Source: Treponema sp. (GTDB taxonomy: Bacteria > Spirochaetota > Spirochaetia > Treponematales > Breznakiellaceae). Taken from it: DNA of 11,456 bases. Shown here piece by piece: positions 3 to 10,384 of this stretch. The stretch's first letter is position 1. Each line of letters starts with the position of its first letter. A program made the translations under genes and the position numbers. Location: assembly GCA_009780545.1 (NCBI GenBank), contig WQZW01000022.1, positions 1 through 11,456 of the forward strand, given 5' to 3'. The notes under the pieces are model-generated. The model had not been told where the DNA came from, ran no database searches, and saw nothing but the letters and a program-made list of their open reading frames with translations.

Positions 3-134
3 CAAAACCCGGAAAAACCCGAGGGGCTTAAATCGGCAAGCGACATCAGGGCGGCGGTGAAGGAAGTGATTCAAGCGGACTTCGTCCGCTTGGATTTAGG
101 AGATTTGAAGAGCAAATCTCCACACGTTGGTTGA
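3..134 (+). CDS. C-terminal end of an unidentified protein (5' end outside window)
   Basis: The third forward frame is open from the window edge to TGA at 132-134, giving 43 residues. The first part (about 3-68) has codons mostly ending in G or C and encodes a hydrophilic, helix-like stretch with S-D-I-R-A-A-V-K-E-V-I-Q, like the neighbouring real genes. The last 18 or so codons run through the bipartite palindrome at 69-121, so the repeat supplies the C-terminus (L-D-L-G-D-L-K-S-K-S-P). I do not recognise the family. The call rests on codon character and frame only; it could be a chance open frame ahead of the ferredoxin operon. Confidence 0.4.
   Translation, partial: QNPEKPEGLKSASDIRAAVKEVIQADFVRLDLGDLKSKSPHVG
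69..121 (+). repeat. Bipartite double-hairpin repeat, divergent copy
   Basis: Two hairpins stand back to back. The first has a 12-bp stem (69-80 with 84-95, one T-G wobble, loop TTC). The linker is TTA (96-98). The second has a 9-bp stem (99-107 with 113-121, loop AAGAG). The layout (stem ending GGAT, then TTA, then a stem starting GGAG, 23 nt in the second hairpin, then CCAC) matches the array at 9814-10240, but most stem bases differ and differ in pairs. It overlaps the end of the upstream reading frame and lies just ahead of the ferredoxin-operon promoter. Confidence 0.75.
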
Positions 135-3627: not shown

Positions 3628-3857
3628 CCACAAAGGACTTTTCGGCCTCGGCTCTGCGGTAGAACCGAAGCCCTGCTTCCGACGGCCAACCCTTCCAAGT
3701 CCAATCCGCCACAAGGCGGATTGGACCAACCGGCCGTTGCCGACAACGCAATCCGTCCACCTACGGCTGCCGGGCCGCCGACTTCCGAAACAGGACATCC
3801 GTCCTCCGTCAAAGACAAAGCCATGCCCCGTATTATGTACGAGTACGGAAAAAATAG
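3628..3857 (+). repeat. Palindrome-rich spacer after the S-component gene
   Basis: This first part of a 427-nt gene-free stretch holds a 12-bp perfect hairpin (GTCCAATCCGCC at 3699-3710, loop ACAA, partner arm 3715-3726). Its arms share TCCAATCCGC with the first stem of the array copy at 9814. Shorter palindromes follow, such as CGTTG-CCGA-CAACG and GGAC-ATCC-GTCC. In the frame of the S-component gene no stop occurs from 3628 until TGA at 3859-3861, which would give a 77-codon proline-rich extension if the TAA at 3625-3627 were read through or lost. There is no start codon or ribosome site to support a separate gene. Confidence 0.5.
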
Positions 3858-9730: not shown

Positions 9731-9813
9731 TGCCGGCGATGAGATTTGAACTCATACCCCTTTGCAGAGGGGGGATTTTAAGTCCCCTGTGTCTACCGTT
9801 CCACCACGCCGGC
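9731..9813 (-). tRNA. tRNA-Leu, anticodon UAA
   Basis: On the minus strand the sequence folds as a class II tRNA. The 7-bp acceptor stem is GCCGGCG with CGCCGGC and discriminator A. The anticodon stem is GGGGA/TCCCC with loop CTTAAAA, which places TAA at 34-36. A long variable arm includes CCTCTGCAAAGGGG, and the T arm is ATGAG-TTCAAAT-CTCAT. The 83-nt length and long variable arm fit leucine. CCA is not encoded: the next bases are GTT. The 5' end touches the first copy of the palindromic array. Confidence 0.95.
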
Positions 9814-10170
9814 TGATCCAATCCGCATAGCGGATTGGATTTAGGAGCTTTGCGTAGCAAAGCTCCACGCCTTTTTCAATTCAGCAACGCCCCATGTCGC
9901 ACGCCGGTTGATCCAATCTGCATAGCGGATTGGATTTGGGAGCTTTGCGTAGCAAAGCTCCACGCCTTTATTTTCAATTCCGCAACGCCCCATATCGCCC
10001 TCCGGCTGATCCAATCTGCCGTAGACAGATTGGATTTGGGAGCTTTGCACAGCAAAGCTCCACGCCTTTATTTTCAATTTCGCAACGCCCCATGTCGCCC
10101 TCCGGCTGATCCAATCTGCCGTAGACAGATTGGATTTGGGAGCTTTGCGTAGCAAAGCTCCACGCCTTTA
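9814..10170 (+). repeat. Four tandem copies of the bipartite double-hairpin repeat
   Basis: Units begin at 9814, 9909, 10007 and 10107 (periods 95, 98 and 100 nt). Each has stem one (10-11 bp), a TTA or TTG linker, stem two GGAGCTTTGC with GCAAAGCTCC (10 bp, loop GTA or ACA), then a spacer reading CACGCCTTT...CAATT...GCAACGCCCCAT.TCG. Stem one is perfect C-G in copy 1 (9824 with 9832), T-G in copy 2 (9919 with 9927) and T-A in copies 3 and 4 (10017 with 10027), while the loop grows from ATA to a 7-nt loop. Both strands keep long open frames through the array, but these are by-products of the repeat. The orientation is given as in the window-start copy. Confidence 0.92.
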
Positions 10171-10176
10171 TTCCAG

Positions 10177-10240
10177 ACAACCCATCCGCAGGTGGATTGT
10201 ATCAGGGAGCCTTGCGTAACAAAGTTCCACGCCTTTGTCC
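10177..10240 (+). repeat. Decayed fifth copy of the bipartite repeat
   Basis: It directly follows the fourth copy. The first hairpin is imperfect (around GCA at 10188-10190, with a bulge and a mismatch). The second is GGAGCCTTG with CAAAGTTCC, carrying one wobble and one mismatch; CCACGCCTTTG follows as in the intact units. Both hairpins have lost perfect pairing, unlike the four intact copies. Confidence 0.7.
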
Positions 10241-10263
10241 CAAACCGACCCAAGGATTAGGAG

Positions 10264-10350
10264 AGGGGGCCAAGCCCCCCTTCACTCCGCCCCCGCTACC
10301 GCGGGGCCTCCGTTACCCCCCGAGCGGGGGTTCCCCCCGCAACGCCCCCG
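10264..10350. terminator. Cluster of GC-rich hairpins between the alcohol dehydrogenase gene and the repeat array
   Basis: In 87 nt there are GGGGGC-CAA-GCCCCC (10265-10279), CCCCGC-TACC-GCGGGG (10291-10306) and CCCCC-GAGC-GGGGG (10317-10330), then further C-runs that can pair with the same G-runs. The alcohol dehydrogenase gene ends at 10385 on the minus strand, so its transcript would run into this cluster, and a termination or 3'-end role is likely. No T-run follows on either strand. The remaining bases, 10241-10263 and 10351-10384, show nothing else. Confidence 0.45.
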
Positions 10351-10384
10351 ACTTGTCCTACGGCCTTGTGCCAGAAGCGGTTCC

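Follow-up and report, generated by a model that had tools for sequence, protein, structure and literature searches.

A bipartite palindromic repeat dispersed in a family of spirochaetes, and a possible route by which its stems stay paired

The window analysed here, that is, the whole stretch of 11,456 nucleotides from a contig of a Treponema sp. genome, carries a tandem array and lone copies of a repeat that is real and lineage-specific, a bipartite palindrome of REP/BIME-like character that represents a previously unlisted variant. Its unit, of ~51-55 nt, consists of two hairpins, H1, which is variable, and H2, which is conserved, joined by a short linker; copies are dispersed in the genomes of relatives, and their stems remain paired through changes on both sides of the same base pairs. 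With moderate confidence, template switching during replication is favoured over selection on RNA as the source of these matched changes, RNA roles being possible in particular genomes. No report of a family of H1-H2 repeats was found in the literature searched, which consisted of short listings covering few subscription papers.

The array in the window and its surroundings

The array occupies positions 9809-10172 of the forward strand, where TRF recognises a unit of ~100 bp (period 100, 3.7 copies, 92% matches), which bears out the original prediction of a tandem array of bipartite palindromes. Its copies lie on the forward strand. The first (9816-9866; fold z -9.96) comprises H1 at 9816-9840, the linker TTA at 9841-9843 and H2 at 9844-9866, and the second (9911-9961; z -7.94) an H1 with one T-G pair at 9911-9935, the linker TTG and H2 at 9939-9961. 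In the third (10009-10061; z -7.14) and fourth (10109-10161; z -8.14), H1 (10009-10035 and 10109-10135, respectively) has a 7-nt loop and is joined by TTG to H2 (10039-10061 and 10139-10161). A fifth copy (10181-10231) has decayed and lost its pairing, with a fold z of -0.03 and 95 of 200 shuffles folding equally well. Away from the array, an isolated copy is found on the forward strand at 69-121 (H1, linker, and H2 at 99-121; z -8.31), and a diverged one on the reverse strand at 3667-3726, in which the H1 palindrome is kept and H2 is unrecognisable. The single-stranded DNA folds of copies 1-4 and of the copy at 69-121 range from -18.3 to -22.7 kcal/mol (z -7.1 to -10.0), and none of the 200 shuffles made of each folded as well. 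On these folds, the two-hairpin design with a TTA or TTG joint that had been proposed holds for these five copies and fails for the decayed one.

When the window was scanned with R1, a covariance model built on 17 rows of equal length, five good copies were obtained (36.9-65.8 bits), namely copies 1 and 2, which had both been used in building the model (65.7 and 65.8 bits), copies 3 and 4 (51.8 and 53.9 bits) and the isolated copy (36.9 bits). The decayed copy gave 15.8 bits at 10175-10228, and the diverged one 22.2 bits (E 1.6e-4). A frame open from the window start (window 3-134) runs in translation through both hairpins of 69-121 to a stop at 132-134, and this lone copy may lengthen the C-terminus of a protein.

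The succession described for stem one, from C-G (copy 1) through T-G (copy 2) to T-A (copies 3 and 4), is present in the array. Taken alone it proves little, since it concerns one single pair and copies 3 and 4 also have a longer, different loop. The assertion that nearly every stem base differs at 69-121 was overstated: in comparison with copy 1, four of the 11 H1 pairs differ, one of them merely by a change to T-G, together with two of the 10 H2 pairs, one being A-T in place of C-G and the other lost to A-G.

The 5' end of a tRNA-Leu(UAA) gene on the reverse strand (9731-9813; ARAGORN, Rfam RF00005) abuts the array. Homology between the window and one relative, G159 (locus L034), extends as far as this 5' end and does not continue into the array, none being present at that place in G159; the two are distant species, in which intergenic DNA differs anyway. 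The array could have arisen by one insertion beside the tRNA gene, followed by tandem duplication. A plasmid collection searched with the array gave no match. The protein encoded at 8140-9408 matches 'Spirochaetaceae bacterium isolate Nm470_bin44' at 58%, and up to 66% within the family of that genome; we infer that the family of 195 genomes considered below is the Breznakiellaceae, probably of termite guts. Ten other ORFs of the window are ordinary by Pfam (ferredoxin/POR subunits, TPP enzyme, S41 peptidase, histidine phosphatase, HAD hydrolase, PPIC rotamase and Fe-ADH), with a match to an ECF-type transporter, below the cut-off, among them. At 2822-2946 the window holds a third interspersed repeat with a hairpin, to which sequences at six places in the G159 contigs are similar, in L121, L122, L116, L113 and L119 and, over 37 nt, in L105.

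The repeat family and the larger elements that hold it

The consensus of H2 is GGAGNTTTGC-NNN-GCAAANCTCC, nearly always followed by A (95 of 99 elements). Its exact pattern, GGAGNTTTGNNNNNCAAANCTCC, is present in 67 of the 195 family genomes, the reversed control giving zero in every genome, and the highest counts, which are lower bounds, are 32 in G018, 29 in G124, 27 in G159 and 23 in G202. In a sample of the phylum (n=296, seven of them in the family set), three genomes match exact H2, two of which belong to the family, leaving one of 289 outside it. R1 finds matches in 134 of the 195 family genomes, up to 75.3 bits, and in 21 of the 289 outside (24/296 overall, three of them family), where the best reaches 48.0 bits; these are lower bounds, at most 30 candidates being scored per family genome and at most 20 per phylum-sample genome, so that the depth is unequal. 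The original prediction had called for a search for further copies, and their presence in relatives, where they are dispersed, supports its description of an interspersed, REP/BIME-like palindromic repeat.

A total of 106 distinct H2 sites were collected from 33 genomes and the window. On the better side, an H1 scoring at least 7 lies within 7 nt of H2 at 97 of the 106 sites, against a null of 4.5% of 762 random trials per side, or ~9% for the better of two; orientation was assigned by this better-scoring side. The seven sites scoring below 6.5 were omitted from the counts of ORFs, G-T and A-C pairs, stop codons, loops and flank motifs, for which 99 elements remained. H1 and H2 are separated by 0-5 nt (out of the 7 nt permitted in the search), with linkers mostly of 2-3 nt (69/99), stems of 10-12 bp and mostly 3-nt loops, and, by a crude calling of ORFs, 77 of the 99 elements lie outside ORFs of at least 120 aa. 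The type of H1 varies with the genome, being ATCCAATC in the window, GGCCAA in G159, GC(N)AA and GAATAA in G202, GCTGAA in G124 and AAGACTTG in G018, while copies within one genome have linkers and flanks in common. A single covariance model for all H1 types was left unused, because MAFFT misplaced H1 arms of unequal length. In some H2 variants of G159, the GGAGTTT stem encloses a second, longer palindrome (L112 11772-11837, L114 9412-9478 and 9624-9690, and L121 1262-1336).

In G018 a conserved element of ~320 nt, which ends in TGCTCCCCC or TGCTTCCCC, has the unit as its 5' part. Among the 16 copies whose right end is recognised, its length is 293-327 nt in 15 and 217 in the other; as raw counts, TTG follows the end after 4-6 nt in 9/16, and the first long ORF starts 39-47 nt past it in 5/16. 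This element (L123-L137) is often located just upstream of promoter-like sequence. Fourteen of its 17 copies were aligned (A8), the right end of those omitted being unrecognised in one case and shorter in two; the fourteen share a joint fold in which 11 pairs have changed on both sides, a result matched by 0 of 500 shuffles. Its cells comprise 875 Watson-Crick, 55 G-U, 8 A-C and 12 other combinations, a spectrum that appears RNA-like, though the modelled fold was chosen with G-U allowed.

Beside the array, at 10262-10354 of the forward strand, lies a near-copy of a second repeat scaffold, formed by GGGGGCCAAGCCCCCC, a variable hairpin, TTACCCCCCGAGCGGGGG and CCCCCGCAACGCCCCCG. Stretches similar to it are found in L111, L151, L167, L182 and L103, and a related pattern in 52 of the 195 genomes, with 143 occurrences in G078 and none for the control. 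In 37 rows parsed of 40, one variable pair of this scaffold is either G-C (25) or A-T (12). In copies from G001, G018, G069, G078 and G159, an H1-H2 unit has one half of such a scaffold on either side. The second-scaffold locus in G022 is full of other repeats and offers no clean empty site; another repeat of ~50-90 nt, seen in L196 and G022, is matched dozens of times in G022 and less often in G021 and G023.

Pairing across copies and its possible origin

Three alignments of the unit bear on whether its pairing is kept. That of G159 (A1; 18 rows, 16 distinct, with five of the 23 sites omitted for the shape of H1) has 99.4% of its cells paired and a covariation score of 0.122, against 0.023 in shuffles, with 0/500 as high; one of its pairs is seen as C-G six times, G-C four, A-U three and U-A three, and is never broken. 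The G202 alignment (A2), restricted to the 12 of 21 sites fitted to a 25-nt H1, is 99.2% paired and contains four pairs with two-sided changes (score 0.169 vs 0.040 shuffled, 0/500). The third (A7), of 17 equal-length rows (two from the window, the other window copies being omitted, 12 from G202 and three from G124), pairs in 99.4% of cells, with ten pairs changed on both sides and one G-U cell; its two-sided cells amount to 53, compared with 14.5 in shuffles, and its score to 0.419, compared with 0.107 (0/500 as high). The number of pair types does not exceed that of shuffles, 183/500 in G159 and 135/500 in A7 being as high, nor does the number of pairs with a two-sided change in G159 (385/500). 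These shuffles ignore relatedness, which is kept by a control that slides partners by 1-3 columns, and the scores of this control reach at most 0.090 (A7), 0.048 (G202) and 0.020 (G159).

The covariation test suggested beforehand has thus shown pairing to be kept across copies beyond shuffles. Two results had been named in advance as speaking against the prediction, an absence of further copies and variation that breaks pairing as often as it keeps it; neither was found, because more copies exist in relatives and pairing exceeds that of shuffles. Pairing is not always repaired in the G018-type, since 12 of 22 elements carry C-C or C-T at one inner pair of H1.

Selection on RNA is expected to tolerate G-U pairs and not A-C ones. 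Among 1072 trimmed H1 pairs of the 99 elements, G-T occurs five times and A-C six, a scarcity that concerns 11 cells in stems trimmed to their best core before counting. In addition, the loops of H2, read with H1 first, recur as reverse complements in the copy-rich genomes: TCC 4, GGA 4, TCT 3, AGA 3 and TGA 1 in G018; TTC 9 and GAA 2 among 22 in G159; TAC 5, GTA 3 and GGA 3 among 20 in G202; and TTC 1 and GAA 1, beside TGC 5 and TAC 1, in G124. This reversal could in part reflect a preference for certain loops. Of 95 GC-closed H2 triloops, 54 are of the form GNA or TNC, compared with 25 of 76 other triloop hairpins (p 0.002); a special signal in the form of a GNA-type DNA triloop was discarded, as the difference is gone when each genome is counted once (p 0.47).

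The original prediction left the choice between selection and a copying mechanism, acting on folded RNA or on single-stranded DNA. Taking into account the few G-U pairs and the reversal of loops, we lean to copying at the DNA level over RNA selection for H1 and H2. Excerpts of PMC8604942 describe template switching between inverted repeats by which arms are homogenised and spacers inverted, and in excerpts of PMC8794818 the same process has been proposed to create and maintain the stems of RNA hairpins. A replication fork would switch template inside the folded hairpin, so that one arm serves as the template for the other; several pairs would then change on both sides at once, the loop might turn round, and the stems would stay paired mainly through such events. 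The repeat itself would be a non-autonomous bipartite element dispersed across one spirochaete family, perhaps along a single-stranded route, that multiplies within genomes and behaves as REP/BIME elements do, most copies lying in intergenic DNA or at the ends of genes. One gene of G202 ends in FKVEG* within a unit, whereas seven of nine related loci have FKVE* and two of nine gave another ORF; judged from this one gene, compared across genera, the change appears insertion-like. The whole of this explanation, in which a dispersed repeat grows in tandem and its stems are kept by template switching, is in our judgement evenly poised between being right and wrong.

Competing explanations and known systems

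A role of the units at the RNA level, in which they would form the 3' ends of transcripts or direct their processing and, in G018, belong to a larger RNA, with their pairing kept by selection, is unlikely. This idea draws on G202, where 10 of 17 units start from -3 to +20 nt of the stop codon of an ORF of at least 150 aa (13/680 at random), and on the covarying fold of the G018 composite, with its 55 G-U against 8 A-C cells. However, such placement is absent from G018 (0/17), G159 (0/19) and G124 (0/8), these counts omitting units too near a contig end; the remaining genomes give 1/25, and the window 1/4, in this case beside an ORF antisense to the genes there. Moreover, H1 stems lack the G-U preference, the units of the window have no long U-tract downstream, and the G-U excess of the composite was favoured by the way in which its fold was chosen. 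It is far harder to believe that unrelated gene-end hairpins have come to resemble one another by chance or by vertical descent, without dispersal, and we consider this very improbable. Hairpins of all kinds are about twice as frequent as in crudely shuffled DNA in the G159 and G018 stretches, and the weak R1 matches in 21 of 289 genomes outside the family would also agree with it; against it stand the exact H2, found at 23 to 32 places in each of four genomes with a control of zero, and the linkers and flanks common to the copies of a genome.

The original prediction had also pointed to RAYT transposases as movers. A REP/BIME family moved in trans on single-stranded DNA by a RAYT or an IS200-type Y1 transposase would fit the architecture and placement of the unit, which REP dimers resemble. 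Seventeen of the 99 elements, of the G018-type, have GTAG in their left flank, and 58 of the 99 have, on the reverse strand, a GTGG that overlaps the base of H2, the heads of REPs being GT(A/G)G in excerpts of PMC2817692. Y1_Tnp (PF01797) is found in 119 of the 195 family genomes, and an H2-like core, TTTGCNNNGCAAA, without the GGAG base, occurs in two of 30 Y1 loci (L086 2091 and L101 574), apparently one site in two genomes; comparison loci gave 1/60, that one being a known element. Against this, Y1 is present in 45 of 67 genomes with exact H2 and in 74 of 128 without it (p 0.22), and shows no association with R1 at cuts of 1, 5, 10, 15 or 20 matches (p 0.87, 0.66, 0.35, 0.22 and 0.78). No Y1 match exists in 17 of the 37 genomes with at least ten R1 matches, nor in three of the four richest in exact H2; absence from a single genome is weak evidence because many genomes are in hundreds of contigs, and the argument lies in the lack of association over all 195. 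Exact H2 was found in none of the 30 Y1 loci fetched (the best match per genome, with at most ~1.5-2 kb of flank), six of which carry a different recurrent hairpin, CCACCGG..CCGGTGG. A RAYT is, therefore, not supported as the mover by co-occurrence or by neighbourhood, and we hold this explanation to be quite unlikely.

The repeat can be set beside several known systems. Hairpins acting on single-stranded DNA, as at the ends of IS200/IS605 elements and in their non-autonomous derivatives, would explain the structure of the unit, though the recurrent hairpin beside Y1 genes of this family (6/30 loci) differs from it in sequence. The attC sites of integrons are likewise folded single strands of conserved shape and variable sequence, disposed in arrays; they were rejected as candidates, since no R-box-like motif is present in 9801-10260 and none flanks both sides of any of the 99 elements. 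Known RNA families were also discarded, tRNA alone being found by Rfam in the window (nothing else at E up to 1) and in seven loci, all of them G018 stretches (at gathering scores).

In being short (51-55 nt), dispersed (23-32 exact H2 in four genomes) and mostly extragenic (77/99), the repeat agrees with REPs, and excerpts of PMC3733652 describe GTAG REPs and BIMEs as short dispersed palindromes that often come in pairs or clusters and lie mainly downstream of coding regions and close to gene 3' ends, with GTAG ends that often supply the stop codon of the flanking ORF. Excerpts of PMC2817692 add that palindromy is kept while sequence changes, as is the case here, and that REPs usually exceed 100 copies per genome; the copy numbers found here, which are lower bounds, are in the tens, with exact H2 up to 32. 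Unlike GTAG REPs, the unit joins two hairpins that do not resemble each other, 0-5 nt apart, lacks a GTAG edge common to all palindromes and shows no association with Y1; a Y1 gene flanked by cognate repeats was not seen among the 30 loci, as judged from exact H2 (0/30) and the related core (2/30). As regards BIMEs, mosaics in which REPs of alternating orientation are combined with other modules, H1-H2 units sit in or beside the second scaffold. CGTC REPs, according to excerpts of PMC3733652, occur in five phyla, Spirochaetes among them, apparently without a dedicated transposase and mostly as dimers. They have stems of 8-9 bp and loops of 4-5 nt, compared with 10-12 bp and mostly 3 nt here; CGTC is found on none of the forward flanks of the 99 elements, and its reverse complement in four left flanks. 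Membership of the CGTC superfamily, which also has the tag variants TGTC and CCTC and a CCA tail, was, thus, set aside on the tag CGTC itself, stem and loop.

Covariation is standard evidence for functional RNA structure, and here it is near-perfect and repeated in dozens of copies per genome. We put forward, tentatively and as a possibility rather than a probability, that a family-wide system spreads palindromes without a RAYT, that DNA template switching exchanges their stems and makes them perfect again, and that their covariation comes from mutation and not from RNA selection. If this is true, textbook covariation, with two-sided changes, four pair types per position and hardly any G-U, would be the product of a mutation process. 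Repair of stems by template switching is directly testable in this one set of repeats, with almost no G-U and loops in both orientations. The family adds to the REP-like repeats one that was found in no listing, together with a large structured element that contains the unit.
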